This document shows, piece after piece, positions 21,635 through 57,927 of a stretch of DNA of 64,000 nt. Position 1 is the stretch's first letter. The number at the start of each line of letters is the position of its first letter. This DNA is from Proteiniphilum propionicum (GTDB lineage: Bacteria; Bacteroidota; Bacteroidia; Bacteroidales; Dysgonomonadaceae), in contig NZ_CP073586.1 of the NCBI RefSeq assembly GCF_022267555.1, positions 186,001 through 250,000 of the forward strand, in the 5' to 3' direction. The position numbers and the translations under genes were made by a program. The notes under the pieces were generated by a model. The model saw only the letters and a list, made by a program, of their open reading frames with translations, searched no databases and was not told the origin of the DNA.

Positions 21635-23833
21635 ATGAAATTAATTTATCCGATTACTTTTTTGTCGATCGTTTTATTCGGTTGCACAGGTACAGCAGAG
21701 AAAAAACTCACTGACTATGTAAACCCTTTCTTAGGTACAGCCACCCTATGGGAACCCGAAGATCTGGGATATGTACGTACCTGGAAAAATCGCACCTGGG
21801 GAGCCGAGGTCTTTCCAGGCGCTTCACTACCCAATGCAATGGTGCAGCTAAGCCCGGTAACACAGTTCAGAAGCGGTGCCGGTTATCAGTACGAAGACAC
21901 GGTAATCTACGGATTTGCCCACACCAACAAAGGTCACTGGAACCTGTTGCATATTCCCCTGCTGCCAGTCACGGGAGAGGTCACGCCTGGAAATTATGCT
22001 TCCGCTTTCAGTCATGATAACGAATCGGCTCATCCGGGATACTACCGGGTATTTCTCGAAACATACGGTATCGACGCGGAACTGACCTCCACACTGCGTT
22101 GCGGGTTTCATCAATATACTTATCCAAAGGGAGCAAAAAAGAAGTTGATTGCCGATATGGCACGTTCCAACAACCGGGTGAAGGATTGGAAGATTGAGAA
22201 GGTGGGCAAGTACGTCTTTTCCGGTTTCCAGGATGCTGAAGGGAAAATGTATTTCTACGCGATCTCCAATTATCCCATAGAGGATATTCGAACTCTGAAA
22301 GACAAACGGCATGAGGTCTCGTTGGTGGAGTTTGAAGAGAATGAAAACTTTGTTGTGTCGGGTGGAAATAATAAGAACAAAGGGAGAGGAAAAGATAAAC
22401 CGCTGGAACTAAAAATAGGATTTTCCTTTGTGAGCGTGGAAAATGCAAAGATGAACCTGGAGAAGGAGATGATCGACAAGAGCTTTACGCAGGTAGCGAA
22501 GGAGGCTGATAAAACATGGGAGGAATTATTATCACATATTAAGGTTACAGGAGGAACAGCACGTGAAAAAGGGATTTTTTATTCTACCCTTTACCGTTCA
22601 TTCCTATGGCCTGCACTACGCAGTGATGTAAACGGTGACTTCACCGACGAACGGGGAAACGTGGTAAATGAAGGGTTCCGCTATTATACCAATCCCTCGT
22701 TTTGGGACGACTACCGGAACAAGCTTGTGCTGCTGGGAATGATCTCTCCGGATGTCACGACGGACATCATCAAATCAATCACCGATAAGGGTGAGAAAAG
22801 AGGAGGCTATATGCCCATCTTCTTCCATGGCGACCATGCTTCGTTGTTTGTAGCCGGAAGCTGGTTACGCGGCATTACAGGGTTTGATCTGGAGCGTGCT
22901 TATAAATTGCTGCTCAAAAATGCAACTGTTCCCGGTCAGGGTGGAAGGCCCTATCTCGATGAATATCTGAAGCGGGGATGGATTGCAGAAAAAGATACTA
23001 CCCACGTCCCCACCTGGGACGAGTACAAGGCGGCCGTCACCAAAACAGTGGAATATGCTTATGACGACTATGCGACAGCATTGATTGCCAAGGAGCTTGG
23101 GGATCAGGAGAATCATAACCTGCTGATGCGTCACTCCGGAAATTACAAAAACCTGTTCGACCCATCAACCGGCTTCTGGCGTGGCAAGATAGAGGATGGC
23201 ACCTGGATAGCCGATTTCGATCCCTACTACCCCTATTTCGCCTATATGTACCGGGAAGCCAACGCCTGGAACTCACTCTTCTTTGCTCCCCACGATCCGG
23301 AAGGGATGATTGCTCTCTATCCTGATCACAAGGCGGTGGAGCAGAAGCTCGACTCACTCTTCACCGAACCATGGCGGGGTTATGAAGCGCACAACATGAC
23401 CGGCTTTATCGGTAACTACTGTCATGGCAACCAACCCTCCCACTCGATTCCATACACCTACTACTTCATCGGGAAACAGGAGAAGGCGCAATGCGTATTG
23501 GACAGCATCATGGACCGATTCTATGATATGGGAGAGGAGAAGCTGGCTTACGCCGGCATGGACGATGCGGGAGAGATGTCAGCCTGGTATGTCCTCAATG
23601 CGATCGGATTATATACCTACTCACCTGCTAACCCGGAATACATCGTGTCGGTGCCGCTTTTCGACAGGGTGACATTCACCCTGGGTGACAATACCACTTT
23701 CACCATCCTGAAAGAAGGAAATGGAAAGAAGATCAGACAAATCAGATATGATGGTGATGTAATAAACGGGTGGTTTGTCACGCATGATCAACTCAAAAAA
23801 GGCCGGAAGTTGGTGATCACAACCACCGAATAG
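21635..23833 (+). CDS. GH92 family alpha-1,2-mannosidase (full length)
   Basis: It is 732 residues from ATG 21635, a signal ending LFGC marking a surface or periplasmic lipoprotein. The N-terminal beta-sandwich (DYVNPFLGT, AEVFPGASLPNAMVQLSP) and the (alpha/alpha)6 catalytic part (GFRYYTNPSFWDDYRNKLVLLGM, GDHASLFVAGSWLRGI, NMTGFIGNYCHGNQPSHSIPY, AYAGMDDAGEMSAWYVLNAIGLYTYSP) are typical of the calcium-dependent exo-alpha-mannosidases. The Glu and Asp of DDAGEMSAWY and the QPSHSIPY motif lie in the active-site region. It converges on recG with only 7 bp between. Residues 291-732 recur almost unchanged at 53130-54458. Confidence 0.93.
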   Translation: MKLIYPITFLSIVLFGCTGTAEKKLTDYVNPFLGTATLWEPEDLGYVRTWKNRTWGAEVFPGASLPNAMVQLSPVTQFRSGAGYQYEDTVIYGFAHTNKGHWNLLHIPLLPVTGEVTPGNYASAFSHDNESAHPGYYRVFLETYGIDAELTSTLRCGFHQYTYPKGAKKKLIADMARSNNRVKDWKIEKVGKYVFSGFQDAEGKMYFYAISNYPIEDIRTLKDKRHEVSLVEFEENENFVVSGGNNKNKGRGKDKPLELKIGFSFVSVENAKMNLEKEMIDKSFTQVAKEADKTWEELLSHIKVTGGTAREKGIFYSTLYRSFLWPALRSDVNGDFTDERGNVVNEGFRYYTNPSFWDDYRNKLVLLGMISPDVTTDIIKSITDKGEKRGGYMPIFFHGDHASLFVAGSWLRGITGFDLERAYKLLLKNATVPGQGGRPYLDEYLKRGWIAEKDTTHVPTWDEYKAAVTKTVEYAYDDYATALIAKELGDQENHNLLMRHSGNYKNLFDPSTGFWRGKIEDGTWIADFDPYYPYFAYMYREANAWNSLFFAPHDPEGMIALYPDHKAVEQKLDSLFTEPWRGYEAHNMTGFIGNYCHGNQPSHSIPYTYYFIGKQEKAQCVLDSIMDRFYDMGEEKLAYAGMDDAGEMSAWYVLNAIGLYTYSPANPEYIVSVPLFDRVTFTLGDNTTFTILKEGNGKKIRQIRYDGDVINGWFVTHDQLKKGRKLVITTTE

Positions 23834-23840
23834 GGTTTTC

Positions 23841-25934
23841 TCAACTGATCCGGCTCCAGTCGTAACGGTTTCCGCTCAAGCGGCTTAACTGCTGTTTCAG
23901 GACCAGGTGCCCCGGCTGTTCCAGCTTTGGATCGTCACCAATGACACTTTCAGCTATCTCACGGGCGCGATAGAGGATGGCATTGTCGCGCACCAAGTCG
24001 GCAATACGCAGGTTGAAGGGGATACCACTCTGCTGTGTACCCTCGAGGTCTCCCGGGCCACGAAGCTTCAGGTCAGCCTCAGCTATCACAAAACCGTCAT
24101 TGCTTTCAGTCATTATCTCAATCCGCTTACGAGTATCGGTAGATAGTTCGTAGGGAGTGATAAGTACGCAGAAAGACTGATCAGCCCCACGCCCTACCCT
24201 GCCCCGTAGCTGATGAAGCTGTGAGAGTCCAAAACGCTGTGCACTCTCAATCACCATCACACTCGCGTTTGGCACATTAACCCCTACCTCGATAACAGTG
24301 GTGGAAACCATAATCTGCGCATCGTTGCTCACGAACTGCTGCATAACCTCATCTTTCTCGGCGGGCTTCATTCGTCCATGCATCTTACAGACGCAAAATT
24401 CTGGAAATATCTCTTTTACGTGCAGATATCCCTCTTCCAGATTTTTCAGATCGAGTTTTTCACTCTCTTCAATCAACGGATAAACGATATATGCCTGCCG
24501 GCCTTCATTTATCTGATCACGGATAAACTGATAAAGAGCGCCACGTTTATTATCGTAACGGTGCAATGTATGTACAGGCTTTCTGCCAGGCGGCAGCTCG
24601 TCTATAACCGAAACATCAAGATCGCCATACACCGTCATAGCCAGCGTACGGGGGATAGGAGTGGCAGTCATTACCAGCACATGCGGGGGCCTGCAGCTTT
24701 TGGTCCACAATTTTGCACGCTGCGCCACACCAAAGCGATGCTGCTCATCAATCACCACAAATCCCAGTTTACTGAACTGAACCACATCCTCAATAAGAGC
24801 ATGTGTGCCAATTAGTATATCAATCACTCCCGATTGCAGTTCTTTATGCATCACCTCGCGCTCTTTTTTCTTAGTAGAACCTGTAAGAAGAGCCACCTTC
24901 ACCTTCATTCCTGAAAGCATTTTCGTAAAAGTCTCGAAGTGTTGTGATGCAAGAATCTCGGTAGGCGCCATCAGGCATGATTGAAACCCGTTATCCAGGG
25001 CTATCAGCATACACATAATAGCCACCAGTGTTTTGCCGCTTCCCACATCTCCCTGTAACAAGCGGTTCATCTGCTTCCCTGAAGCCGTGTCTTTCCTGAT
25101 CTCTTTAATCACACGCTTCTGTGCACCTGTCAACGGGAACGGGAGCTTATACTTATAGAATGAATTGAGATGGTTTCCCACTTTACGGAAGACAAAACCG
25201 TTAAGTTTCATTTTCCTGTCGGAAGCATACCGCACAATACTGAGCTGTATATAGAAGAGTTCCTCAAACTTGAGGCGAAATTCAGCATCACGAAGGAGTG
25301 CCTGCGTTTTTGGAAAATGAATATTCTCAACCGCATCATGAAACGCCATCAGCTTTGCTGTCCTCACAACATCAGATGAAAGTGATTCTGGCAGCCTCTC
25401 CCTGATCATACCGAAAGCACTGCCTATTATCTTTTGCATTGCCTTAGAGTTAAGATAATGGTTTTTCATCTTCTCCGTGGTGTTATACATCGCCATCAGC
25501 CCCTCGGGGCGGGCAGAATCGTCCATGAAAGGGTCTATATCAGGATGGGCGATATTCCACCTTCCGTTGAAAAGGCTTGGCTTTCCAAAGACAATATACT
25601 CGGTGTTCAGCTTATATTTGCTTTCAATAAAGCGAATTCCCTGAAACCATACCAAATCAACAAAACCGGTTCCATCGGTAAAATGTGCTACTAAACGCCT
25701 TCTTCTTCCTTCGCCAAAGGTCTCAAACGCAGTGATACGTCCTTTCAACTGGATGAATGCCACAGAGTTATCGATCTCGTGCACATAATATATGCGTGAT
25801 CTGTCCACATACCGGTAAGGGTACCAACGCAGAAGATCACCAAGCGTGAACACATCGATCTCCTTGTTGAGGATCTCGGCTCTTTTGGGTCCCACGCCGG
25901 GAATAAACTTTATGTCTGTCTGAAGTATATTCAT
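23841..25934 (-). CDS. recG: ATP-dependent DNA helicase RecG (copy 1)
   Basis: It is 697 residues from ATG 25934; a longer frame to 26033 is rejected because the second copy starts at the same residue. The protein has an N-terminal wedge/OB domain (about 60-160), Walker A GDVGSGKT (295-302), the DEQH box in VVIDEQHRFG (396-399), TATPIPRTLAM, and the RecG-specific QRFGLSQLHQLRGRVGRG. It remodels stalled replication forks and Holliday junctions. A second full-length copy lies at 54466-56559, gapless, roughly 85% identical by eye. The gene is probably expressed apart from glyA, on the same strand. Confidence 0.95.
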   Translation of the reverse strand: MNILQTDIKFIPGVGPKRAEILNKEIDVFTLGDLLRWYPYRYVDRSRIYYVHEIDNSVAFIQLKGRITAFETFGEGRRRRLVAHFTDGTGFVDLVWFQGIRFIESKYKLNTEYIVFGKPSLFNGRWNIAHPDIDPFMDDSARPEGLMAMYNTTEKMKNHYLNSKAMQKIIGSAFGMIRERLPESLSSDVVRTAKLMAFHDAVENIHFPKTQALLRDAEFRLKFEELFYIQLSIVRYASDRKMKLNGFVFRKVGNHLNSFYKYKLPFPLTGAQKRVIKEIRKDTASGKQMNRLLQGDVGSGKTLVAIMCMLIALDNGFQSCLMAPTEILASQHFETFTKMLSGMKVKVALLTGSTKKKEREVMHKELQSGVIDILIGTHALIEDVVQFSKLGFVVIDEQHRFGVAQRAKLWTKSCRPPHVLVMTATPIPRTLAMTVYGDLDVSVIDELPPGRKPVHTLHRYDNKRGALYQFIRDQINEGRQAYIVYPLIEESEKLDLKNLEEGYLHVKEIFPEFCVCKMHGRMKPAEKDEVMQQFVSNDAQIMVSTTVIEVGVNVPNASVMVIESAQRFGLSQLHQLRGRVGRGADQSFCVLITPYELSTDTRKRIEIMTESNDGFVIAEADLKLRGPGDLEGTQQSGIPFNLRIADLVRDNAILYRAREIAESVIGDDPKLEQPGHLVLKQQLSRLSGNRYDWSRIS

Positions 25935-26080
25935 TATACAATACTTGGCACTCGTTCCGGATAGCGAGTCTTGTGCAAAAATATAAAAAAATGAGGAACA
26001 GGTCAACCATTCCTCATTACATAAATCAAACACATCCCCGTAACCCTAATCACGGGATATCCATGGGTGAAAGCAGTTGC

Positions 26081-27361
26081 TTACCACGCGAAAAGCGGAT
26101 ATTGCTTCATGGTTGCATTCACCTTTCCCCGGACTGATGAAATTATTTTATCATCATCGGGATTAGAAAGCACCGTATCTATAAATTCCACAATTTCGCC
26201 CATAAGCTTCTCCTTGGCTCCACGAGTGGTGATAGCAGGCGTGCCGAATCGCAGGCCCGATGTTTGAAATGGAGAGCGGCTATCAAAAGGTACCATATTT
26301 TTATTGGCCGTGATATCGGCTTCTACAAGTACTTTTTCGCCCACTTTGCCAGTCAAGGCAGGGAATTTGGTGCGTAAATCTACTAGAACAATATGATTGT
26401 CAGTGCCTCCGGAAACAACTTTATAGCCTTTATCAATAAAGGCCTGTGCCATCACAGCTGCATTTTTCCTCACCTGTACCTGATAGGTTTTGTAGTCAGG
26501 CTGCAGAGCTTCATAAAAGGATACTGCCTTAGAGGCTATCACATGCTCCAGCGGCCCTCCCTGCATTCCCGGGAATACTGCTGAATCGAGCACCGCCGAC
26601 ATCATTTTCACTTCTCCTTTCGGTGTTGTCAGCCCCCACGGATTTTCAAAATCTTTACCCATCAAAATGATACCTCCCCTAGGGCCTCGCAACGTTTTAT
26701 GGGTAGTAGATGTAACAATATGCGCATATTTAAGTGGATTCTCAAGCAATCCGGCGGCGATCAATCCTGCAGGATGCGCCATATCAACCATAAAAATAGC
26801 TCCTATCTCATCGGCTACCCTGCGGATACGTGCATAGTCCCACTCACGGGAATAGGCAGAAGCCCCGCCAATTATCAGTTTAGGCCTCTCTCTGCGGGCA
26901 ACCTCATCAAGCTGATCATAATCTACCCGTTGATCATCCTCATGCACATTATATTCCAACGGCTGAAACATTATACCGGAAAAATTTACCGGAGAACCGT
27001 GTGAAAGATGGCCTCCGTGCGAAAGATTCAATCCAAGGAACTTATCTCCAGCCTTAAGGCATGCAAGAAACACTGCTGCATTGGCTTGTGCTCCGGAGTG
27101 CGGTTGCACGTTTACCCACTCTGCTCCGAACAATTCCTTTAACCTGTCGATGGCGAGCTGTTCGCTCATATCAACCACCTCACAACCTCCGTAATAACGT
27201 CTGCCAGGATAGCCTTCGGCATATTTATTAGTCAGCACAGACCCCATAGCCTGCATTACCTGTTCACTTACAAAATTCTCAGAAGCAATCAGCTCAATAC
27301 CCTTCAGCTGCCGATCCCTCTCTTTTGCGATAATCTCAAAGATTTGTGTATCTTGATTCAT
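26081..27361 (-). CDS. glyA: Serine hydroxymethyltransferase (copy 1)
   Basis: This 426-residue cytosolic PLP enzyme interconverts serine and glycine and makes 5,10-methylene-tetrahydrofolate. Motifs: [21 protein letters not shown] at the N-terminus, [22 protein letters not shown], and [13 protein letters not shown] with the PLP lysine at residue 222. It lies upstream of recG on the same strand and diverges from the tyrosine phenol-lyase gene. A second complete copy at 56647-57927 is about nine-tenths identical. A TACATTTG -7 box lies 33 bp upstream of its start. Confidence 0.96.
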
Positions 27362-28976: not shown

Positions 28977-30032
28977 TTACATTTTATACATCTCCCGGTA
29001 ATAATTTTGATACTCACCACTGGTAACGCTATCCAGCCAATCCTGATGATCGATGTACCACCGGACGGTCTTTTCAATCCCCTCTTCAAACTGGAGGGAG
29101 GGTTGCCATCCAAGTTCATCCTTTATCTTCGATGCATCGATGGCGTAACGTAAATCATGTCCGGCCCGGTCGGCTACATAGGTGATTAGTTTCTCCGACA
29201 CACCCTCTTCCCTTCCGAGTAAACGGTCTGTAGTTTTAACAAGAAGGCGAATCAGATCGATATTTTTCCATTCGTTAAAGCCACCTATATTGTATGTATC
29301 GCCTTTTCGCCCATTATGAAAGACCAGGCATATAGCTCGGGCATGGTCCTCAACATAAAGCCAGTCGCGTACATTTACTCCTTCTCCATAAACAGGCAAC
29401 GGCTTATTCCGGCGAATATTATTGATGAAAAGCGGAATCAGCTTCTCCGGGAACTGGTAAGGCCCGTAATTATTTGAGCAGTTGGTAATAACAACCGGAA
29501 GGCCGTAGGTATCGTGATAAGCTCTGACAAAATGATCGGAAGATGCCTTGGAAGCGGAGTATGGACTATGGGGATCGTAACGTGTCTCTTCAGTAAATAG
29601 TGTATTATCAAATTCCAATGCTCCATAAACTTCATCTGTGGAGACATGATAGAAAAGTTTATTCTCGAAGTTATCCTTCCAGCACTCCCTTGCAGCCTGT
29701 AACAGGTTAAGGGTGCCCATGACATTGGTTTCGGCAAAAGAAAATGGATCTGTAATTGATCGGTCCACATGACTTTCGGCAGCAAGGTGAATGACATTAT
29801 CGATCTTGAATGTTTTGAAAACCTCTTTTATCTTATCAAAATCGCAGATATCGGCTTTCACAAAAGTGTAGTTAGGCTTATCCTCTACATCCTTCAGGTT
29901 AGCCAGATTCCCCGCATAGGTAAGTTTATCAAGATTTATGATATGATATTCCGGATAACTGTTCACGAACAGCCGTACAACATGTGAGCCTATAAAACCG
30001 GCTCCTCCGGTAATAAGGACATTTTTTTTCAT
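28977..30032 (-). CDS. rfbB: dTDP-glucose 4,6-dehydratase RmlB
   Basis: It is 351 residues from ATG 30032; the frame extends to 30062, but the NAD loop KNVLITGGAGFIGSHV then lies too far in. Extended SDR features: TGGAGFIGS near residue 10, STDEVYG, the catalytic YSASKASSD (Tyr-x-x-x-Lys) and NNYGPYQFPEKLIP. It is the second step of dTDP-L-rhamnose synthesis, removing water from dTDP-glucose. It follows rmlC and rmlA on the same strand; rmlD is not in the run. Confidence 0.95.
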   Translation of the reverse strand: MKKNVLITGGAGFIGSHVVRLFVNSYPEYHIINLDKLTYAGNLANLKDVEDKPNYTFVKADICDFDKIKEVFKTFKIDNVIHLAAESHVDRSITDPFSFAETNVMGTLNLLQAARECWKDNFENKLFYHVSTDEVYGALEFDNTLFTEETRYDPHSPYSASKASSDHFVRAYHDTYGLPVVITNCSNNYGPYQFPEKLIPLFINNIRRNKPLPVYGEGVNVRDWLYVEDHARAICLVFHNGRKGDTYNIGGFNEWKNIDLIRLLVKTTDRLLGREEGVSEKLITYVADRAGHDLRYAIDASKIKDELGWQPSLQFEEGIEKTVRWYIDHQDWLDSVTSGEYQNYYREMYKM

Positions 30033-30095
30033 AACAACTATTTTACTTTGATTAACAGACATTTATCAGAACATGAAAGCAGAATTGCCGGATAT

Positions 30096-30632
30096 TTACA
30101 AACTGGATAAACAGGGATTTTTCTTATCTTTTTCCGACAGAATGATATCGTTAAACGGCAGCCCCCAATCGATATTCAGCTGCGGATCATTCCAGATTAT
30201 AGCCCCTTCATAACCAGGCGCATAGTAATTGTCACATTTATACTGAAAGATGGCTTCCTCACTCAGTACAGAATATCCGTGCGCGAATCCGCGGGGAATA
30301 AAAAGCTGTTGTTTGTTTTCATCTGACAATTCTGTTGAAACATATTTCCCGAATGTTGGGGAGTCTTTTCTAATATCTACCGCCACATCAAGGACGCAGC
30401 CTTTTACAACACGCACCAGCTTAGCCTGCTCAAAAGGGGGCTTTTGAAAATGCAGACCCCGCAACACTCCATAACATGATTTACTCTCGTTATCCTGTAC
30501 AAAAAGAGTCCTGCTCACCTTCTCTTCGAACAGCCTATGGGAAAATGATTCAAAAAAGTATCCACGTTTATCAACAAACACTTTAGGTTCAATTATCACA
30601 ACTCCCTTAATATCGGTTTCAATAATATTCAT
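30096..30632 (-). CDS. rfbC: dTDP-4-dehydrorhamnose 3,5-epimerase RmlC
   Basis: This 178-residue cupin epimerase acts third in dTDP-L-rhamnose synthesis. Visible signatures are KRGYFFESF-like DKRGYFFESFSH, the substrate-binding VLRGLHFQKPPFEQAKLVRV with its catalytic His, and FIPRGFAHGYSVLSEEAIFQYKCD. Its end lies 63 bp before the rmlB start and its start 15 bp from the rmlA stop, so the three genes form one operon read from rmlA. Confidence 0.95.
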   Translation of the reverse strand: MNIIETDIKGVVIIEPKVFVDKRGYFFESFSHRLFEEKVSRTLFVQDNESKSCYGVLRGLHFQKPPFEQAKLVRVVKGCVLDVAVDIRKDSPTFGKYVSTELSDENKQQLFIPRGFAHGYSVLSEEAIFQYKCDNYYAPGYEGAIIWNDPQLNIDWGLPFNDIILSEKDKKNPCLSSL

Positions 30633-30647
30633 ATCACATATAAAATT

Positions 30648-31520
30648 TCAGTCCATCAGCTTAAGAAGATATTGTCCGTAAGGATTATTCTTCATCGACT
30701 CTCCGATCCTCTTCAGATCATCATCAGAGATCCAGCCGTTACGCCATGCTATCTCTTCAAGACAGGAGATTTTGAGTCCCTGCCGTTTCTCCAGCACTTC
30801 TATAAAGGTAGATGCTTCCGAAAGTGAGTCGTGCGTACCGGTATCGAGCCATGCAAACCCCCTGCCAAACAGTTTTACCTGGAGCTGTTTCTCTTTTAAA
30901 AAAGCCTGGTTAATTGAAGTAATCTCTAACTCACCACGTGCAGAGGGCCTTATTTGCTTCGCGATCTCCACAACACTGTTAGGGTAGAAATAGAGTCCTG
31001 TTACAGCCCAGTTCGATCTCGGGTTTACAGGCTTCTCTTCTATACTGATCACCCGTCCGGCGTCATCGAATTCAGCAACACCATACCTCTCTGGATTATT
31101 CACGTAATATCCGAACACTGTAGCCAGCATATTTTCTTCCGCACTTTCCAGAGCTTCCCTTAATAGTGCAGGAAACCCGTTTCCATAGAAAATATTGTCG
31201 CCCAGGACAAGGCAGACAGCATCGTTACCAATAAACTCTTCACCAATAATGAACGCTTGCGCCAAACCGTCGGGAGAAGGTTGTACTGCATAACTGAAAC
31301 TCACGCCATAGTCGGACCCATCACCAAGTAAACGCTGAAAACCAGGCAGATCTGCTGGTGTGGAGATAATAAGAATATCTCTTATCCCTGCAAGCATTAA
31401 AGCGGAAATTGGATAATATACCATTGGTTTATCAAAAATGGGGAGTAGCTGCTTTGATATACCTTTAGTGATAGGATACAGCCGCGTTCCTGAGCCTCCG
31501 GCTAAAACAATTCCCTTCAT
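30648..31520 (-). CDS. rfbA: Glucose-1-phosphate thymidylyltransferase RmlA
   Basis: This 290-residue nucleotidyltransferase makes dTDP-glucose from dTTP and glucose-1-phosphate. It opens [18 protein letters not shown] with the GGxGTRL nucleotide loop, followed by [25 protein letters not shown] and the C-terminal [15 protein letters not shown] and [10 protein letters not shown]. It is the first gene of the rml operon. A TATTTTTG -7 box lies about 100 bp upstream. Confidence 0.96.
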
Positions 31521-31616
31521 ATGATTAATCTATAATTTTTCAATTCAAAACTTACAATAACAATCCAGTTGTGCAGAATAAACTTATATACTACTTATGC
31601 ACGATTCGTTATTTCA

Positions 31617-31624
31617 CAAAAATA
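31617..31624 (-). promoter_or_regulatory. -7 promoter box of the rml operon
   Basis: TATTTTTG on the minus strand fits TAnnTTTG; a partial TTG lies 19 bp further upstream. It is the best candidate start for rmlA-rmlC-rmlB, with a leader of about 90 nt. Confidence 0.35.
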
Positions 31625-31649
31625 TACAAATTTCCGCAAAGGCAACCTG

Positions 31650-32324
31650 TTATTCTGTTAAATCGGGCCTTAGCCGTTTTGTTCTTTCAATAGACTGCTC
31701 CAGTCGCCACTCCTGTATTTTTCGTTCATGCCCCGACAACAGTATATCGGGTACTTTCCACCCTTTGTATTCGGCGGGACGGGTATAAACTGGCGGTGCC
31801 AGCAGTCCATCCTGAAACGTATCGGAAAGTGCAGACTGTTCATCGCCTATAGCCCCTGGAATAACTCGCACAATAGCGTCTGCAATCATTGCAGCCACAA
31901 GCTCTCCGCCTGTAAGCACAAAATCGCCGATGGAGATCTCCCGAGTGATAAGATGTTCTCTTACACGGTAATCAACACCTTTGTAGTGGCCACACAATAT
32001 AATAATATTTTGTTTAAGAGATAGCTCGTTGGCAGTAGCCTGAGTGAACTGTTCCCCATCTGGAGAGGTGAAAATCACCTCATCATACCGGCGCTGCGAT
32101 TTCAAATAAGAGATAGCTCTGTCAATCGGTTCAATCTGCAACACCATTCCTGCTTCCCCGCCAAAAGGGTAATCATCTACCCGTCTATGCCTGTCGAGGC
32201 TGTAATCACGTAGGTTATGAAGGCCTATCTCTACAAGCCCCTTCTCCTGTGCCCGCTTCAGTATGCTCGTATAAAACGCACCTTCGATAATCTCTGGAAG
32301 CACTGTTATTACATCTATTCTCAT
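31650..32324 (-). CDS. trmD: tRNA (guanine(37)-N1)-methyltransferase TrmD
   Basis: This 224-residue SPOUT methyltransferase makes m1G37 in tRNA, protecting the reading frame. Motifs: [33 protein letters not shown], the knot segment [14 protein letters not shown] and [25 protein letters not shown]. In this family the C-terminal part (residues 160 onwards) binds tRNA. It is separated by 129 bp from rmlA downstream and 96 bp from the TonB receptor upstream, so it may be read alone. Confidence 0.96.
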
Positions 32325-32420: not shown

Positions 32421-34877
32421 TTAGTTTCCCCCTGCAGGAGGTGTAGTTGTATTTTGCTGCGATCCTTCACCTTGCATTAGATCTTCGTTAGAGATAGTCC
32501 TTTGTACCTTTTTCATAGATGCTTTCAGCTCACCGAAGCGATATGACACACTCAGGCGGATGCTCCGCATCGGGTAATGAAAAATATTTTCCTGCCAGAA
32601 TCCTTCACCTGTTGTAGTTGAGGATATCTTCCGGTTTTTCGATAATACATCCTGCAGGTTGAGAGAAAGATCAAGTTTCTTGTTAAGGAAGCTCTTCATT
32701 AGGCTGAAAGAGTAGAAATAGAAGGGAGACTGCTTTGTCTGAAGCTGAATACGATTAAGAAACAAGCCGCCATTTGCACCAACTCTGAAATCACCGGGAA
32801 ATGTAAAGGTAAGCCCTCCAAATGCTCGCCCGGAAAAACCGCTGTTCCGCAGCTCACTTTTTTCGGTACTCCGGATATCGGTATAATTTATACCACCATT
32901 CAGATATGTACGAACAACTTGGGTAGGCGTCCAGCTCACATACAGGTTTGTTCCCACCGTCTGATTTTTCCCTATATTGGCATAAGTATTGTGTGTAACG
33001 CCATTTTCAATAAAGCTGTACCCTGTCACCGCATTTCTGGCAAAAGCATAACTGAGCGTAACGTTGAAATTGAGTTTCTGCGAAAAGGCCCCGTAGTTAA
33101 TATTGAAGTTATGCTGCTTTTCTGCGTCGAGATTGGGGTTCCCATAACTGATATTGTTAGGATCTACATCGTTCACATACGGATTCAGGTACCATATACC
33201 TGGACGGGAAATACGCATGTTGTAGCCGCCACGCAATGTACGGGTCATTCCCAGCTGATAGGAAAGTGTAACCGAGGGAACAAGATCAAAAAAATTGGTC
33301 TGCACTATCGTATCCAGCTGGCTACCCATAAAGTGGATCTCCTGTTGAGTATATTCGCCTCTAAATCCCAGCTTCACCCCTGTTTTTCCCGATTTAAACC
33401 CGTAGCCGGCATATCCTGAAGTAATATTTTGCGTATGATCGAGATCATTTTTACGGCTTACATCTGGTTTCCATACACCCTCCTCCGTATCGAAGAATGT
33501 GTGGTCGGCGCGACTGGTATTATCGCGGAATATATATTTTAATCCAGTCTCGATGCTGTGTTTTCCGTTCAGCGGATTAACATAGTCCAACTGTCCCGTA
33601 TGCTCTTTTCCTCCTGCATTATTAACACTTCTCAGTTTATAACCGTCAGTGTAATAAAATACTCCTGTAACATTCTCATACTCGCTGTCGTACTCGCTAT
33701 CATTCGGATTATCCTCAAACCGGTATGAGATGGTAAGCATCTCACCCTTCCGTTTAAAACTTCTCTGATAATCTGCCGACAGGCTCATTCCGCCATATTC
33801 AACAGTACTATTGGAACGAGTGTTGTAACTGTATGGTCTTGCTCCTGAGGATAGCGCATCCTGCATAGAGTGTGATTTGAATTTTCCGCCATATCTTGAA
33901 CCCGACAGGTTGAACAGATTCAGTGTATCGGGTTCAAAGCTGAGTGCACCGCTAAGGAACAGCCCGCCTCCATCGCTCTTATTTTTACCATTTAGGGTCA
34001 GTAAATTCTGCGGGCTGAACTCTTCCCTGGTAAAACCCGATTCCGACTCGGGCCGTTCATGATGGAAGTATCCTGCGTTACCGGTAAAACCAAACTTGCC
34101 GTATTTTGTAGCCAGATAAGCATTCCCTCCGTAGCCTCCGAAATTATCGCCGTTAGCTCCAACAGATCCGGAATAGCCGTCATCGACACGCTTATCGGTA
34201 ACAATGTTGATAATGCCTCCAACCCCTTCTGCATCATACTTAACACCTGGATCCGTAATCACTTCTATATCCTTTACGCTGTTGGCAGGCATACTCTTCA
34301 GTACCTGCGATGGGTTACCTGAAATCATATTTGATGGTTTTCCGTTCAGATATATTTTAAAGTTGCTTGAACCTTTCAACTGAATTTCATCTTCACCGTC
34401 CACTGTAACAAGCGGTACTTTACGTAACAGGTCTAGTACGTTTGAGGTTGATGATTCAGGATCGTCCTTTGCACTGTAGGTCAGCTTATCTATCTCAACC
34501 TTCACCAAAGGCTTTTGAGCGGTCACGCTCACCTCTTCGAGTTCAATTGAGCTCTCGTCCATTGCAATCTCTCCCAGGTCTAGCGGATTCTGAGAAGTGG
34601 ATACTTCAACAAGTTTCTTCAGGCCGTTCATCCCAACAAAATGGAAAATAAATATGTATTTTCCGGGGGTTAGCGCAGTGGAGAAGGTACCGTTCTCTTG
34701 TGTTGCCAGCCTTTTTACTGTATTGGCCGGATTAGACTCACGTGCAACCGAGATGGTAACATATGGCAGTCCGGCCTTGTCATCAGCCGAAACCAGTTTA
34801 CCTTTTACGGTGACATTTTGAGCAGTCATACTCATTGATATGACACAGAATAGAACTAAAATCTGAAATAGTTTCAT
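32421..34877 (-). CDS. TonB-dependent outer-membrane receptor with carboxypeptidase-regulatory N-domain
   Basis: This 818-residue protein has a signal peptide (about 1-19), a carboxypeptidase-regulatory-like beta-sandwich (about 20-105; VTVKGKLVSADDKAGLPYVTISV), a plug-like region (LDLLRKVPLVTVDGEDEIQLKGSSNFKIYLNGKPSNMI, about 145-215) and a large outer-membrane barrel of the 'OMP beta-barrel' class, ending in an odd QQNTTTPPAGGN tail. It diverges from the beta-helix genes with only 41 bp between starts. No SusD partner follows, so it probably handles a small ligand or peptide rather than a glycan, but the ligand is unknown. Confidence 0.85.
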   Translation of the reverse strand: MKLFQILVLFCVISMSMTAQNVTVKGKLVSADDKAGLPYVTISVARESNPANTVKRLATQENGTFSTALTPGKYIFIFHFVGMNGLKKLVEVSTSQNPLDLGEIAMDESSIELEEVSVTAQKPLVKVEIDKLTYSAKDDPESSTSNVLDLLRKVPLVTVDGEDEIQLKGSSNFKIYLNGKPSNMISGNPSQVLKSMPANSVKDIEVITDPGVKYDAEGVGGIINIVTDKRVDDGYSGSVGANGDNFGGYGGNAYLATKYGKFGFTGNAGYFHHERPESESGFTREEFSPQNLLTLNGKNKSDGGGLFLSGALSFEPDTLNLFNLSGSRYGGKFKSHSMQDALSSGARPYSYNTRSNSTVEYGGMSLSADYQRSFKRKGEMLTISYRFEDNPNDSEYDSEYENVTGVFYYTDGYKLRSVNNAGGKEHTGQLDYVNPLNGKHSIETGLKYIFRDNTSRADHTFFDTEEGVWKPDVSRKNDLDHTQNITSGYAGYGFKSGKTGVKLGFRGEYTQQEIHFMGSQLDTIVQTNFFDLVPSVTLSYQLGMTRTLRGGYNMRISRPGIWYLNPYVNDVDPNNISYGNPNLDAEKQHNFNINYGAFSQKLNFNVTLSYAFARNAVTGYSFIENGVTHNTYANIGKNQTVGTNLYVSWTPTQVVRTYLNGGINYTDIRSTEKSELRNSGFSGRAFGGLTFTFPGDFRVGANGGLFLNRIQLQTKQSPFYFYSFSLMKSFLNKKLDLSLNLQDVLSKNRKISSTTTGEGFWQENIFHYPMRSIRLSVSYRFGELKASMKKVQRTISNEDLMQGEGSQQNTTTPPAGGN

Positions 34878-34918
34878 TTAGTTTTTATGATTATGTGAAA
34901 TTTAAAAAATTACAAAAG

Positions 34919-37612: not shown

Positions 37613-37640
37613 GAATTATCGCCTAAGGAGAAATGACAAA

Positions 37641-43569: not shown

Positions 43570-43606
43570 ATGATTATCATTACTTCCGCACACAAAAATA
43601 GAAAAA

Positions 43607-45850: not shown

Positions 45851-45909
45851 AAAATAATGAGAATTTATCAAACACTATTAAGAAGTTGAATTAATTAAAA
45901 CAAAAAATT

Positions 45910-46788: not shown

Positions 46789-46820
46789 GATCTTATGTTC
46801 AATAATGAAAAATCAATCGT

Positions 46821-47675
46821 ATGAAGTTAAGTGTATCATCTAAACTATATCAGAATTACAGGTTGGAGGAAACTATTAAACGGATTGCCAAACTCGGCTA
46901 CGACGGCATAGAGATTTGGGGTGGACGTCCGCATGCATATTACCGGGATATCAACCAGACGACTGTTTCATCTATGAGAGATATAATCGAAAAGGCCGGA
47001 CTTGAAATATCCGGCTTTATCCCAGCGCAGTTTGGTTACCCGACAAGTTTATGCAGCCCAATCCCATCTATCCGGAAAGATAGCGTGGAATACATCAAAA
47101 ATAGTATCGACACATCCCTTTTACTGGGATGCAGGAAAGTAAGTCTTTGTCCTGGCCGCACCCTGTACGGGCAGGGCTATAACAGTGGAATGGCCGAATT
47201 AACAAGTAGTCTCGATGAGCTGGTGGACTATGCAGTTGCGAAAGAGGTGCTTCTGTTATTGGAACCGGCCCATATGATGGAAAGTGATCTGGTTCTCACG
47301 GTGGAAGACGGGGTAAGGCTCATCGAAGATCAAAAATACCCAAATATGGGCATCGCTCTAGACACCGGTCATTGTCACGTGAACAAGGAATCATTGGTAG
47401 ACTCTCTGTTACTTTTGAAGAGAAAAAACATTCCACTGCATGTTCACTTGGATGATAACAACGGGCTGGCCGATCAGCATAAGATTCCGGGGGAGGGAAC
47501 AATCTGTTTTGCACCATTTTTTCAAACCTTGCTTGAAACCGGATATAAAGGATTTTTGACCGTGGAATTGGGTTTCGATTATACTTCCAGTCCGGATGAA
47601 GCTGCCCACCAAAGCAGAGAATTTGTCCTGTCAGTTCTGAAAGATACCCATATTCGTATCAAAAAAGGGCAATAA
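46821..47675 (+). CDS. Sugar phosphate isomerase/epimerase-like TIM barrel (second of two)
   Basis: This 284-residue cytoplasmic member of the xylose-isomerase-like superfamily is only distantly similar to the one before it. Candidate metal-binding residues: VLLLLEPAH (Glu), IALDTGHCHV (Asp, His), PLHVHLDDNNGLADQHKIPG (His, Asp) and GFLTVELGFDY (Glu). GYDGIEIWGGRPHAYYRD gives the first strand. It is probably co-transcribed with its neighbour and the ceramidase-like gene 19 bp on. Confidence 0.82.
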   Translation: MKLSVSSKLYQNYRLEETIKRIAKLGYDGIEIWGGRPHAYYRDINQTTVSSMRDIIEKAGLEISGFIPAQFGYPTSLCSPIPSIRKDSVEYIKNSIDTSLLLGCRKVSLCPGRTLYGQGYNSGMAELTSSLDELVDYAVAKEVLLLLEPAHMMESDLVLTVEDGVRLIEDQKYPNMGIALDTGHCHVNKESLVDSLLLLKRKNIPLHVHLDDNNGLADQHKIPGEGTICFAPFFQTLLETGYKGFLTVELGFDYTSSPDEAAHQSREFVLSVLKDTHIRIKKGQ

Positions 47676-47693
47676 TAATGAAAAAATAATCCA

Positions 47694-49244: not shown

Positions 49245-49307
49245 TTAAATCTATAAAACGAATTAAATCATTAATTAATAGATATTCACACATCAAACGA
49301 TTTGCAT

Positions 49308-50588: not shown

Positions 50589-50648
50589 ACTGAAAGTATA
50601 ACCATTCACATATAAAAATAAATCAACAATTGAAAAACAGAAAATTTC

Positions 50649-51917: not shown

Positions 51918-52095
51918 AGAGACAAATTTTTTATTTACTCCTAATAATAAAACCGGTAAAACTCTATTTATACAATCAGAACCAACTTATCATCCTTGTC
52001 GATGAAATGACGATTATTCTTATGGCAGTTAAAACAAATCGTGGAAAATTTAAATGATTTATATTTATGTGAAACGAAAAAATGAAACAAAGGAG

Positions 52096-53115
52096 ATGAA
52101 TTTTATAAAATATGGCATAATATACACGGCTGTGTCTTTATTTATTATATTCGCCAACGTGAGATCGCAAGTAAATTTAAATGATATTCCAATGATTGGT
52201 GCAGAAATATTCATAGAACCCGGGCAGTCGGATGAAAATGTAGAGAACTGGTTTAAAATTCTCAGGAAAAACAATATGAAGGTTACACGTATCCGCATGT
52301 TCGAAAATTATATGAAGGATGTAAATGGCGACTGGGATTTCAGCTTATTTGACAAGGCATTCTCTTATGCGGAAAAATATCATATTAAAGTCTATGCCAA
52401 TCTTTTCCCGGCTACAGATTTTACAGATGTAGGAGGATTTAAATTTCCGTATAACGAAGAACATCTTAACCGTATAGCCGATTATATAAAAAATGTAGTT
52501 CTTCATTTTAAACAACACTCATCTCTCTATGGTTGGATTCCCATTAACGAACTAGGGGGAGGGAACATAAATGACCCTTTGGCAAGGACAATCTACAAAA
52601 AATGGCGAGATAACTATGAAGACACCCAGCAGATCTATAAACTCACTGCTTACAACCAGCTGTCATTTGATAATGAGAAGTTCTTGTTGCATTATAACAC
52701 ATGGTATTTAAAATGGTTGTCGGATGAAATACGCAAATATGACAAAGAAAAGCCCATCCACGTAAATAACCATCAGATTTTTACACTGGCCGCACAGTAT
52801 GATTTCCCAAGTTGGAGAACTTTTCTGTCCAGCTTAGGAGGTTCAGCCCATGCCAGTTGGCATTTTGGTTTTTTCCCCAGAAACAGGTATGCCATAGCCA
52901 TGTCTGCAAATAGCGAGATTCTTCGTTCGGGCGCCGGTAACATTCCCTGGCTGATGACTGAATTACAGGGAGGAAATAATATTTACAGCGGTACCAACCC
53001 AATGTGTCCTACAAAGGAGGAAATAGGTCAGTGGTTTTGGATAACTATAGGTTCAGGGAGTAAAGGAGCAATCTACTGGTGTTTAAACCCAAGAGCATCC
53101 GGTGCTGAATTTTGA
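52096..53115 (+). pseudogene. Truncated GH42-like (clan GH-A) beta-galactosidase
   Basis: It is 339 residues from ATG 52096 (signal MNFIKYGIIYTAVSLFIIF...; an upstream ATG at 52054 is less good). The TIM barrel retains both probable catalytic glutamates: acid/base Glu166 in IPINELGG and nucleophile Glu303 in MTELQGG. Full-length relatives run to 600 residues or more, with trimerisation and beta domains after the barrel; here the frame ends at GAEF shortly after IYWCLNPRAS. The break coincides with the start of a GH92 tail at 53130, so the truncation is a rearrangement or assembly junction. Confidence 0.7.
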
Positions 53116-53129
53116 GAATCAACCTACAG
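53116..53129. other. Breakpoint between truncated GH42-like gene and GH92 tail
   Basis: The 14 bases between the GH42-like stop (53113-53115) and the first base matching GH92 residue 291 (53130) belong to neither gene clearly. From 53130 rightwards the sequence follows the block at 22505 with a constant offset of 30,625 bp through the recG stop. Confidence 0.7.
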
Positions 53130-54458
53130 GCTGATAAAACATGGGAGGAATTATTATCGCATATCAAGGTTACAGGAGGAACAACACGTGAAAAAGGAAT
53201 TTTTTATTCTACCCTATACCGTTCATTCCTATGGCCTGCACTACGCAGTGATGTAAACGGCGACTTCACCGACGAACGGGGAAACGTGGTAAATGAAGGG
53301 TTCCGCTATTATACCAATCCCTCGTTTTGGGACGACTACCGGAACAAGCTTGTGCTGCTGGGAATGATCTCTCCGGATGTCACGACGGACATCATCAAAT
53401 CAATCACCGATAAGGGTGAGAAAAGAGGAGGCTATATGCCCACCTTCTTCCATGGCGACCATGCTTCGGTGTTTGTAGCCGGAAGCTGGTTACGCGGTAT
53501 TACAGGGTTTGATCTGGAGCGTGCTTATAAATTGCTGCTCAAAAATGCAACCGTTCCCGGTCAGGGTGGAAGGCCCTATCTCGATGAATATCTGAAGCGG
53601 GGATGGATTGCAGAAAAAGATACTACCCACGTCCCCACCTGGGACGAGTACAAGGCGGCCGTCACCAAAACAGTGGAATATGCCTACGACGACTATGCGA
53701 CAGCATTGATTGCCAAGGAGCTTGGGGATCAGGAGAATCACGACCTGCTGATGCGTCACTCCGGAAATTACAAAAACCTGTTCGACCCTTCTACCGGCTT
53801 CTTTCGCGGAAAGATTGAAACAGGAAGCTGGATAGCCGATTTCGATCCCTACTACCCCTATTTCGCCTATATGTACCGGGAAGCCAACGCCTGGAACTCA
53901 CTCTTCTTTGCTCCCCACGATCCGGAAGGAATGATTGCTCTCTATCCTGATCACAAGGCGGTGGAGCAGAAGCTCGACTCACTCTTCACCGAACCATGGC
54001 GGGGTTATGAGGCACACAACATGACCGGCTTTATCGGTAACTACTGCCATGGCAACCAGCCCTCCCACTCGATTCCATACACCTACTACTTCATCGGGAA
54101 ACAGGAGAAGGCGCAATGCGTACTGGACAGCATCATGGGCCGATTCTATGATATGGGAGAGGAGAAGCTGGCTTACGCCGGCATGGACGATGCGGGAGAG
54201 ATGTCAGCCTGGTATGTCCTCAATGCGATCGGATTATATACCTACTCACCTGCCGATCCGGAATACATCGTGTCGGTGCCGCTTTTCGACAAGGTGACAT
54301 TCACCCTGGGTGACAATACCACTTTCACCATCCTGAAAGAAGTAAATGGAAAGAAGATCAGACAAATCAGATATGATGGTGATGTAATAAACGGGTGGTT
54401 TGTCACGCATGATCAACTCAAAAAAGGCCGGGAATTGGTGATCACAACCGCCGAATAG
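53130..54458 (+). pseudogene. GH92 alpha-mannosidase, C-terminal 442 residues only
   Basis: An open frame of 442 residues corresponds to residues 291-732 of the GH92 enzyme at 21635-23833. By eye there are 13 amino-acid differences and no gaps. The signal peptide and N-terminal sandwich are absent, and the only in-frame start is a TTG at 53112, so it is unlikely to be expressed as an exported enzyme. It converges on recG copy 2 with 7 bp between, as in the first block. Confidence 0.85.
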
Positions 54459-54465
54459 GATTTTC

Positions 54466-56559
54466 TCAGCTGATCCGGCTCCAGTCGTACCGGTTACCGC
54501 CAAGGCGGCTGAGCTGCTGCTTCAGCACCTGGTGCTCCGGCTGCTCCAGCGCCGGATCTTTTTCAATCACCCGCTCCGCAATCTCGCGGGCATTATAGAG
54601 GATGGCGTTGTCGCGTACCAGGTCCGCAATGCGCAGGTTAAAAGGGATGCCGCTCTGCTGCGTTCCCTCCAGGTCGCCCGGGCCGCGCAGCTTCAGGTCG
54701 GCTTCGGCGATCACGAAGCCGTCGTTACTTTCGGTCATGATCTCCATCCGACGGCGAGTATCAGCAGAGAGTTCGTAGGGCGTAATCAGTATGCAGTAAG
54801 ACTGATCAGCGCCCCTTCCCACCCTGCCTCTCAGCTGATGTAGCTGCGAAAGGCCAAACCGCTGGGCACTTTCGATCACCATCACGCTGGCATTCGGCAC
54901 ATTCACTCCTACTTCGATCACGGTAGTGGATACCATGATCTGCACCTCACCCGAGACAAACCGCCGCATCACCTCCTCCTTTTCGGCAGGTTTCATCCGC
55001 CCGTGCATCTTGCAGACGGTGAATTCCGGAAAGGCCGCTTTGACATGCTCGTATCCCTCCTCCAGGTTCTTCAGATCGAGTGTCTCGCTCTCCTCGATCA
55101 GCGGGTAGACCATGTAGGCCTGTCGCCCGGCACCAATCTGATCGCGGATAAACTGATAGAGGGCACCCCTTTTCTTGTCGTAACGGTGCAGCGTCTGCAC
55201 CGGCTTACGGCCTGGAGGAAGTTCGTCGATCACCGAGACATCGAGGTCGCCATAGACCGTCATGGCCAGTGTGCGGGGAATGGGTGTGGCGGTCATCACA
55301 AGCATGTGGGGCGGATGGCTGCTTTTCTCCCACAGCCTGGCGCGCTGCACCACGCCAAATCGGTGCTGCTCATCGATCACCACGAAGCCCAGGTTGCGAA
55401 ACTGTACTATATCCTCAATCAAAGCGTGGGTGCCAATCAGGATATTTACTTTCCCGGAGAGCAGCCCTGCGTGGATCTCCTCCCGCTCTTTCTTTCTCGT
55501 GGAGCCAGTCAGCAATGCTACCCCCACATTCATGCCGGAGAGCATCTGCGTGAATGTATCATAATGCTGTGCCGCCAGGATCTCCGTGGGTGCCATCAGG
55601 CAGGACTGAAATCCATTGTCGAGGGCAATCAGCATGCACATAATCGCCACCATGGTCTTGCCGCTTCCCACGTCACCCTGCAACAGGCGGTTCATCTGCC
55701 TCCCGGAGGCGGTATCCTTCCGGATCTCCCGGATTACTCTCTTCTGGGCATTTGTCAACGGAAAGGGTAGTTTCTTTTTGTAAAATGAATTGAGATAATC
55801 TCCAACCTTGGGGAAAAGGATCCCTTTCAGCTTTGCTTTCCGGTCGGATGAGTAACGCACGATGCTTAGCTGGATATAGAACAGCTCTTCAAACTTCAGC
55901 CGGAACTCGGCATCGCGCAGCTGCGCCGGCGACTTGGGAAAGTGAATATTTTCCACCGCATCGTGAAAAGACATCAACCGGGCCTCCTTTACCACATCGG
56001 GTGAAAGTGATTCCGGCAGCGGCTCCTTAATCAGCCCGAATGCATTTTCCATGATCTTCTGCATCGCCCTGGAGTTGAGGTAATGGTTCTTCATCTTTTC
56101 CGTGGTATTGTACATCGCCATCAACCCTTCCGGCCGGTCCGATTCATCCATGAAAGGATCGATCTCGGGATGCGGAATATTCCACTTGCCGTTGAAGAGA
56201 TTGGGTTTTCCGAAGATGATGTACTCCTGGTTGAGCTTGTACTTGCTTTCGATGAAACGGACACCCTGAAACCAGACCAGGTCGACGAAGCCGGTACCGT
56301 CGGTAAAATGCGCCACCAGCCTCCTTTTCCTTCCTTCTCCAAAGGCTTCAAAGGCGGTGATCTTCCCCTTCAACTGGATGTAGGCCTGCGACTGGTCAAT
56401 CTCGTGCACGTAGTACATCCGCGTCCGGTCGATATATCGATAGGGGTACCACCGAAGCAGGTCTCCCAGCGTAAAGACATCGAGCTCCTTCTGCAGGATA
56501 TCGGCTCTTTTGGGTCCCACGCCGGGAACATATTTTATTTCGGTCTGAAGAATATGCAT
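54466..56559 (-). CDS. recG: ATP-dependent DNA helicase RecG (copy 2)
   Basis: This full-length 697-residue RecG aligns without gaps to copy 1. Walker A GDVGSGKT is at 295-302, DEQH at 396-399, and QRFGLSQLHQLRGRVGRG is intact, so both copies should be active. Differences are spread along the protein and mostly conservative, as between orthologues of sister species. The codons are visibly GC-richer than in copy 1. Bacteria normally hold one recG, so this copy is either xenologous or evidence of a chimeric contig. Confidence 0.95.
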   Translation of the reverse strand: MHILQTEIKYVPGVGPKRADILQKELDVFTLGDLLRWYPYRYIDRTRMYYVHEIDQSQAYIQLKGKITAFEAFGEGRKRRLVAHFTDGTGFVDLVWFQGVRFIESKYKLNQEYIIFGKPNLFNGKWNIPHPEIDPFMDESDRPEGLMAMYNTTEKMKNHYLNSRAMQKIMENAFGLIKEPLPESLSPDVVKEARLMSFHDAVENIHFPKSPAQLRDAEFRLKFEELFYIQLSIVRYSSDRKAKLKGILFPKVGDYLNSFYKKKLPFPLTNAQKRVIREIRKDTASGRQMNRLLQGDVGSGKTMVAIMCMLIALDNGFQSCLMAPTEILAAQHYDTFTQMLSGMNVGVALLTGSTRKKEREEIHAGLLSGKVNILIGTHALIEDIVQFRNLGFVVIDEQHRFGVVQRARLWEKSSHPPHMLVMTATPIPRTLAMTVYGDLDVSVIDELPPGRKPVQTLHRYDKKRGALYQFIRDQIGAGRQAYMVYPLIEESETLDLKNLEEGYEHVKAAFPEFTVCKMHGRMKPAEKEEVMRRFVSGEVQIMVSTTVIEVGVNVPNASVMVIESAQRFGLSQLHQLRGRVGRGADQSYCILITPYELSADTRRRMEIMTESNDGFVIAEADLKLRGPGDLEGTQQSGIPFNLRIADLVRDNAILYNAREIAERVIEKDPALEQPEHQVLKQQLSRLGGNRYDWSRIS

Positions 56560-56646
56560 TGCTTATCGCGAGTTTCATGCAAATGTAAATAAAAAATGGG
56601 GAATGGCTAAGCCACTCCCCATCTCTTTATCAGTTATCCGGGCATC

Positions 56647-57927
56647 CTACCAGGCGAAAAGCGGATATTGCTTCATGGTCACGTTCACTTTTTCGCGCAC
56701 CGATGCGATGGTCTTCGGGTCGTCCACGCGAGAGAGCACGGTGTCGATCAATTCCACGATCTCTCCCATCAGTTCTTCTTTTGCTCCGCGGGTGGTGATG
56801 GCCGGCGTACCGAAACGGAGGCCCGATGTCTGGAATGGCGAGCGGCTGTCGAAAGGCACCATGTTCTTGTTGGTGGTGATATCGGCCTCCACAAGTACCT
56901 TCTCCGCTACCTTACCGGTCAGATCAGGGAACTTGGTGCGCAGGTCTACCAGCACGATGTGGTTATCGGTACCGCCCGAGACGACATTATATCCCTTGTC
57001 GGCGAAGGCCTGCGCCATTACGGCCGCATTCTTTTTCACCTGTGTCTGATAGGTCTTGTATTCCGGCTGGAGTGCCTCGTAAAAAGAAACCGCTTTCGAG
57101 GCAATCACATGTTCAAGGGGACCGCCTTGCATGCCAGGAAAAACAGCTGAATCCAGCAGTGCCGACATCATCTTAACCTCTCCCTTGGGTGTGGTGAGGC
57201 CCCAGGGGTTTTCAAAATCCTTACCCATCAGGATCACGCCTCCACGGGGACCACGCAGTGTCTTATGGGTGGTAGAGGTCACGATGTGTGCGTGTTTAAG
57301 CGGATTTTCGAGCAGTCCGGCCGCAATCAGGCCGGCGGGGTGCGCCATATCCACCATGAAGATGGCACCGATCTCGTCGGCTATTTTGCGGATACGAGCA
57401 TAATCCCATTCACGTGAATAGGCCGAGGCACCGGCAATAATGAGTTTGGGTCTTTCAGAGCGTGCCAGTGATTCCAGCTGGTCGTAATCCACTCGCTGAT
57501 CCTCTTCACGCACATTGTATGCTACAGGTTCAAACATCAGACCGGAGAAGTTGACGGGTGAACCGTGTGAAAGATGGCCACCGTGAGACAGGTTCAGTCC
57601 AAGGAATTTATCCCCTGCCTTCAGGCATGCCAGGAAAACAGCAGCGTTTGCCTGCGCTCCCGAGTGTGGTTGCACGTTGGCCCATTCGGCGCCAAAAATC
57701 TCTTTTAACCGGTCAATGGCAAGCTGTTCGCCCAGGTCAACCACCTCACAACCGCCATAATACCTTCTTCCGGGATATCCTTCGGCATACTTGTTTGTCA
57801 GCACAGAGCCCATGGCCTGCATCACCTGTTCACTAACAAAGTTCTCGGAAGCAATAAGCTCAATACCTTTAAGTTGCCGTTCCTGTTCTTTTCGAATTAT
57901 CGCGAAGATTTCTCTATCTTGTGTCAT
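56647..57927 (-). CDS. glyA: Serine hydroxymethyltransferase (copy 2)
   Basis: It is 426 residues from ATG 57927; the longer frame to 57999 is rejected because the promoter at 57956-57963 would then lie inside the gene, and copy 1 begins at the same residue. PLP lysine in [13 protein letters not shown] at residue 222, [21 protein letters not shown] and YPGRRYYGG are intact. It is about nine-tenths identical to copy 1 and richer in GC. It lies upstream of recG copy 2 as in the first block, but its other flank is murQ rather than tyrosine phenol-lyase. Confidence 0.96.

Follow-up and report, generated by a model that had tools for sequence, protein, structure and literature searches.

The 64,000-bp window analysed here (C1:186,001-250,000 of the Proteiniphilum propionicum genome, hereafter the host) contains two copies of a gene block made up of a GH92 gene, recG and glyA. 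The repeat is genuine, yet it covers only a corner of a larger duplication. Its second recG/glyA block belongs to a 46.4-kb segment of ordinary chromosomal DNA that derives from a close strain of Proteiniphilum sp. UBA4977 and was probably added through a single crossover with closed DNA (we put this reading at a probability of about 0.7). Additive integration of DNA from another species, beside a syntenic native region that was not replaced, is highly probable; given such an addition, a single crossover with a closed molecule is the somewhat favoured route. The host cell is an interspecies merodiploid, in which a foreign copy of a chromosomal region is present besides the native one. The extent of the segment, its donor lineage, both of its seams and a reciprocal switch between two outer-membrane protein (OMP) genes can be read from alignments to the relative.

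The two blocks (22,503-27,361 and 53,128-57,927) are alike in order and strand and are spaced 30,625 bp apart by alignment, much as an earlier note made from the letters alone had described them, and its other measurements also held. The GH92 tail proteins are identical at 429 of 442 residues (13 differences), the RecG proteins at 591 of 697 (84.8%) and the GlyA proteins at 382 of 426 (89.7%), and copy 2 is the GC-richer, with a GC content at third codon positions of 0.709 in recG copy 2 against 0.505 in the copy 1 open reading frame (ORF). A nucleotide-identity plot run along both blocks in 100-bp bins places the change to divergence near the recG stop codon: bins in the GH92 tail lie at 95-100% (one at 85%) up to ~23,800 and then at ~62-85%, with recG and glyA at ~75% overall and the recG-glyA spacer at 45%. 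Both sites are present in the host's single 3,906,720-bp contig, and no third GH92-recG-glyA site was found in it. The duplication extends past 57,927 and past the window end to ~82.1 kb (positions beyond 64,000 continue the window numbering), and it also doubles rfbB, rfbC, rfbA, trmD and the OMP gene.

When 39 genomes of the genus were scanned with both blocks, near-identical DNA turned up only in UBA4977, a draft metagenome-assembled genome (coded G026; the host is G000 and UBA4084 is G029). Its contigs C20, C67, C53 and C106 were compared with 284 kb of the host contig, window included, in alignments of ~250 bp or longer. The segment ends ~17 kb beyond the window and is ~99.8-100% identical to UBA4977, with the exception of one 1.8-kb patch; identity in the GH92 tail is 99.5%. 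There are no differences across 34,871-36,645, 123 across 37,064-53,150 (16,087 bp), 118 of them inside 46,686-48,470, nine in the 1,472 bp of GH92 tail and recG end aligned to C106, and 58 across 54,569-81,200 (26,632 bp); the tandem repeats at 36,646-37,063 were compared in part. The divergent patch at 46,686-48,470 looks like a local exchange in either the host or the UBA4977 genome, and a CARDB-repeat gene at 36,506-37,543 has three tandem copies (spacing 369 bp, 91-93% identity over 300 bp), with a repeat number or assembly that differs in UBA4977. Along the segment, the host aligns first with C53 (in reverse), then with the GH92 tail and then with C20; judging from contig ends and the host genome, the three would be joined in the same way in UBA4977, the assembly of which is fragmented.

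Outside these limits the two genomes are those of different species. The flanks of the segment (left of 34,871 and right of ~82.1 kb) are syntenic with UBA4977 at ~66-80% identity, the GH92 tail excepted. In a background sample of 684 kb of host against 448 kb of UBA4977, 75 alignments of 300 bp or more fall outside the block (alignments inside G000:C1 220,000-268,300 left out of this count); 74 of them lie at 65-80%, and the remaining one is the GH92 tail. The length-weighted mean over all 85 alignments is 73.6%. A 1.5-kb part of rpoB sets the host apart, with no more than 80.6% identity to the 29 relatives examined, and places G024, G029, G034 and G015 nearest to UBA4977, at 85.5-88.9%. In a RecG tree of 31 rows (29 other genomes and the two host copies), copy 2 groups with UBA4977 at a support of 100/100 in a clade with G024, G034 and G015, and copy 1 forms its own branch. 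Ordinary duplication of a paralogue is ruled out by this tree together with the near-identity to UBA4977.

The doubled genes are peculiar to the host. Two full copies of TrmD occur in the host only, among 39 genomes of the genus (37 with a match; the second match in G020 is a 30-residue piece at a contig end), as do two SHMT (GlyA) copies above the cut-off (36 of 39 with any above it). Among the matches listed for RecG, which come from 61 genomes, 37 of the genus, and reach down to weak ones far below the full-length matches, two full-length copies are again found in the host only. All eight native/donor pairs compared are open frames, and protein identity within the pairs is 73-90% for RecG, GlyA, RfbB, RfbC, RfbA, TrmD and OMP and 97% for the GH92 tail. 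Further genes of the segment, past the window end, encode a DeoR regulator, SusC/SusD and GH20, besides the RfbB, RfbC, RfbA, TrmD and OMP partners of native genes.

At the left seam, which falls at the OMP start codon, the sequence is identical to the second OMP gene up to 34,878 and to donor contig C53 from 34,871, and so 8 bp (GTTTCATT) are common to both sides. The right seam lies inside the second OMP gene, which changes from donor to native type within 81,237-81,244, the site of a homologous crossover. Compared with UBA4977, the native (left) OMP matches at 1174/1591 (74%), then at 115/115, then at 531/722 (74%), and the second (right) OMP at 1602/1604, then at 85/115 (74%), then at 532/723 (74%). 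The two copies thus change type in the same 8 bp (81,237-81,244), after which 81,351-82,082 is identical in both; since the exchange of type falls at one 8-bp place, the pattern is as after one reciprocal crossover. The reciprocal switch is present but partial, in that the left 5' end is otherwise native-type. The identical 732-bp stretches flank the insert as a direct repeat with a unit of 47,204 bp. Among the OMPs of 13 genomes (no hit in G005 and G012 and partial hits in G010 and G016, where the compared stretches lacked all or part of the gene), donor-type segments are nearer than native-type segments to G024, G034 and G029. The 115-bp donor tract itself is 82-90% identical to the OMPs of G034, G024, G003 and G029 and 70-73% identical to those of G021, G014, G023 and G015. 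To the right of the second OMP, ~2.1 kb (82,083-84,226) containing an SPFH/Band 7 gene separate it from the next stretch that aligns to UBA4977, as against ~0.3 kb in C20.

The position of the seams bears on how the block had been explained before. The earlier note offered a sister-species block inserted beside a native one, which stands in outline; its extent is 34,879 to ~81,240 and not 53,128-57,927, and the junction then suspected is not a seam. That junction, between a GH42-like gene and the GH92 tail, also occurs in UBA4977 (C53:1-1151, 100%), which means that it predates the transfer and came with the donor. The note's other proposal, that an assembler had joined two genomes at the conserved GH92 gene, does not fit seams that lie elsewhere, with ~8 bp in common, and a reciprocal donor tract in the native OMP. 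A chimera assembled from two species in one sample would at least account for a foreign part nearly identical to a metagenome-derived genome. However, assemblers usually join on far more than 8 bp; here the left seam has 8 bp in common, the right switch falls within 8 bp of common sequence and a long shared join was not found, and the donor tract inside the native OMP, together with the single 3.9-Mb contig, points to real recombination. An assembler join is very unlikely.

Carriage by a mobile element or integrative island seems to us similarly far-fetched. The 34.9-53 kb part is indeed accessory in character, since eight other genomes tested besides UBA4977 gave short or weak matches only, and it adjoins different neighbours in the host and in UBA4977. 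Against this, no integrase, transposase or relaxase was found among the 32 block ORFs scanned (smaller and overlapping ORFs lay outside the scan), the right seam is a homologous crossover within a chromosomal gene, and the right part (recG, glyA, rfbBCA, trmD and OMP) is syntenic in UBA4977.

Table 1. Coordinates of the native and donor-derived features in window numbering (G026, Proteiniphilum sp. UBA4977; G000, host).
Feature	Position	Strand	Basis or remark
GH92 copy 1, native, full length	21608..23833	+	Pfam PF07971 and PF17678
recG copy 1, native	23841..26033	-	Pfam RecG domains; own branch in RecG tree
glyA copy 1, native	26081..27361	-	PF00464; G000:C1:212180-213358
rfbB, rfbC, rfbA, trmD, native	28977..32324	-	TrmD PF01746; RfbA TIGR01207; RfbB and RfbC by alignment with donor copies
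OMP, native, TonB-receptor-like beta-barrel protein, recombination target	32421..34877	-	PF14905
115-bp donor tract in native OMP	34037..34151		Identical to G026 C20:26673-26787
732-bp OMP stretch	34147..34878		Repeated without difference at 81,351-82,082 (window-equivalent)
Left seam, 8-bp microhomology GTTTCATT	34871..34878		OMP start against donor contig C53
Donor-derived segment	34879..64000 in window, on to ~81,240 (G000:C1 220,879-267,240)		Alignment to G026
Truncated ORF (GH42-like in the earlier note)	52054..53115	+	Junction with GH92 tail also in G026
GH92 tail copy 2, donor-derived, 5' end missing	53128..54458	+	PF07971; 99.5% to G026 C106
recG copy 2, donor-derived	54466..56559	-	Residues 1-663 100% to G026; RecG tree
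glyA copy 2, donor-derived	56647..57999	-	Profile match; G026 identity
murQ (N-acetylmuramic acid 6-phosphate etherase-like), donor-derived	58180..58998	-	NF003915
rfbB, rfbC, rfbA, trmD, donor	76,255-79,511 (window-equivalent)		Partners of the genes at 28977..32324

A single crossover with a closed molecule accounts most simply for a reciprocal switch accompanied by a target that is repeated in tandem. On this account, the incoming DNA would have had its donor OMP start joined to the far end of the segment (C53) by a 10-bp microhomology; donor OMP start and C53 do have 10 bp in common by eye (TTGTTTCATT). The closed form could have been a circle, or a fragment spanning the join of a tandem duplication in the donor. 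The segment would then have been integrated by one homologous crossover, in which donor and native OMP recombined within 8 bp of common sequence. Later conversion or repair would have left the last 732 bp of both OMPs native-type as far as the start codon, where homology ends, with a 115-bp donor tract remaining in the native OMP copy.

Several points weigh against this account. We infer the closing join, since UBA4977, a draft genome and not the exact donor, has other sequence past the left seam (C53:18626-18852) and its contig C53 lacks the OMP-C53 join; no closed molecule was observed. One extra conversion has to be assumed for the left OMP copy, in which 732 bp are native-type. The 118 differences in one 1.8-kb patch again set UBA4977 apart from the exact donor, and G015, a clade mate of UBA4977 by rpoB, is only 84/115 (73%) identical to the 115-bp tract, no closer than distant relatives. 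The seams, moreover, are read from assembled sequence.

One seam is homologous and the other illegitimate, which is the seam pattern of homology-facilitated illegitimate recombination. A linear donor fragment might accordingly have joined two sister chromosomes, by an 8-bp illegitimate join at the native OMP start on one and a homologous crossover in OMP on the other, whether this is described as homology-facilitated illegitimate recombination or as inter-chromatid integration. Such a fragment explains why one seam has microhomology and the other homology, and it gives two OMP 5' ends that are native-type and identical without later conversion; inter-chromatid integration yielding tandem merodiploids is described in pneumococcus (PMC3784515). 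It leaves unexplained the 115-bp donor tract of the native OMP, which starts in the same 8 bp as the switch in the other copy. No recipient deletion was found at the illegitimate side, where 732 bp of OMP are duplicated instead. We consider integration of a linear fragment unlikely.

The similarity of the GH92 tails has a separate history. By a 50-bp identity scan and by exact runs, copy 1 is a mosaic: nearest to G014/G021 at ~21,658-21,757, it contains an exact 185-bp UBA4977 tract at 21,746-21,930, is mostly nearest to G007 at ~21,958-22,300 and is UBA4977/G024-like at ~22,400-23,830. Exact runs of at least 40 bp that the sampled host sequence outside the block has in common with UBA4977 number 18, of which 11 are in GH92, one in OMP and six (40-95 bp) elsewhere. 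The earlier note had suggested homogenisation of GH92 by gene conversion, taken here as a conversion of copy 1 by copy 2 that followed the insertion. This would suit a tail that is 97% identical to copy 2 and to UBA4977 next to a 5' part (to 22,502) that is nearest to G007 (81.7%) and 77.1% identical to UBA4977, and 13 differing sites crowded together at 23,164-23,202 could be a remnant that escaped conversion. However, the apparent start of the donor-like stretch, near 22,400, lies upstream of the truncation of copy 2 at 53,128 (equivalent to 22,503); this start is read from ~100 bp in which G024 is slightly nearer than UBA4977, and the 185-bp tract is separate from the stretch. The two copies also differ by ~3% (24 synonymous and 13 non-synonymous codons), yet copy 2 is 99.5% identical to UBA4977 C106. 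At the 42 differing sites, native-side alleles are not commoner in copy 1 (80/210) than in copy 2 (89/210), and donor-side alleles are rarer in copy 1 (45/126) than in copy 2 (69/126), as counted over five native-side and three donor-side relatives in tail alignment rows longer than 1,150 bp; as a search for residual native patches in copy 1, this comparison was negative overall. Homogenisation by copy 2 is quite improbable. An earlier, separate exchange with a longer GH92 gene of the donor lineage is more likely, favoured by the apparent start ~100 bp upstream of the truncation and by the ~3% of differences.

Extra partial copies of recG are found in relatives. In UBA4977, a GH92 tail on C106 (1-1,800) leads into the remnant of a broken recG, UBA4084 has recG sequence on three contigs (C102, C38 and C101), and G016 has a second recG 3' end (C73 15,509-15,577) ~4.5 kb away from its complete recG. 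Partial duplications may thus arise repeatedly at the boundary between recG and GH92. On a broader and rather doubtful view, Proteiniphilum species would exchange tens of kilobases of ordinary chromosome as closed (circular or concatemeric) DNA that is added by single crossovers, repeatedly at GH92-recG-OMP. If that were true, the host would be a fresh merodiploid, and UBA4977, UBA4084 and G016 would be later stages in which one copy is decaying.

Among the remaining features, the truncated ORF upstream of GH92 tail copy 2 gave no Pfam or NCBIfam match at E 0.001, and no Rfam match was found in the window at gathering thresholds. A dispersed intergenic repeat lies upstream of glyA copy 2 (57,958-58,083), and ~60-125 bp of it recur at ~78-87% identity in many places in several genomes of the genus. 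A second intergenic repeat, direct, of 137 bp and 86% identical, occurs at 3,673-3,809 and 17,104-17,240.

Transfer of genes from one species to another is mostly inferred either as replacement or from mobile islands; here a plain chromosomal segment was added beside its counterpart, so that the recG, glyA, trmD, rfbBCA and OMP genes of two species, the donor being ~26% different, coexist in one cell. Most of the segment matches a sequenced relative at 99.8-100%, which marks its seams as still fresh, and the reciprocal switch as well as the microhomology is legible to within a few bases. The host is a natural test case for how homeologous recombination makes merodiploids and for which copy is later lost. 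It is also a warning that doubled marker genes in a closed genome need not mean contamination.

The case belongs to a known kind of event and is unusually well resolved. No natural interspecies merodiploid in Proteiniphilum is described in the titles and abstract openings of the open-access literature searched. Mosaics formed in natural transformation of Bacillus subtilis (PMC13344027) resemble GH92 copy 1 and the 115-bp OMP tract in having several short donor patches close together, but they arose in laboratory transformation and the abstract describes no addition of a large segment. Transformation merodiploids of Streptococcus pneumoniae (PMC3784515) are also tandem merodiploids that arise when DNA exchange leads to recombination, and they too retain both versions of essential genes; there, however, the recipient's own DNA is duplicated, a region of ~100-900 kb lying between repeats, whereas here the added DNA is from a ~26% different species and the unit is 47.2 kb. 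Homology-facilitated illegitimate recombination, as outlined in a study of Escherichia coli conjugation (PMC3240628), similarly gives one homologous and one nearly homology-free seam, but predicts a deletion at the illegitimate side where the host has a duplication and a reciprocal switch. In the same study, 56 of 60 unusual integrant clones gave a duplication product, read by the authors as single crossovers with circular DNA, and 14 sequenced clones had 109-950 bp of the target duplicated. To explain how the circle had come to lack part of its homology, the authors favoured cutting, degradation and re-closing over a prior deletion (PMC3240628). The host shares with this re-closed circle a closed molecule (deduced in our case), one crossover and the duplication of a few hundred bp of target (732 bp here), and differs from it in that the E. 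coli donor was a small engineered plasmid with lacZ homology, whereas here a 46-kb chromosomal segment recombined through homeologous genes.

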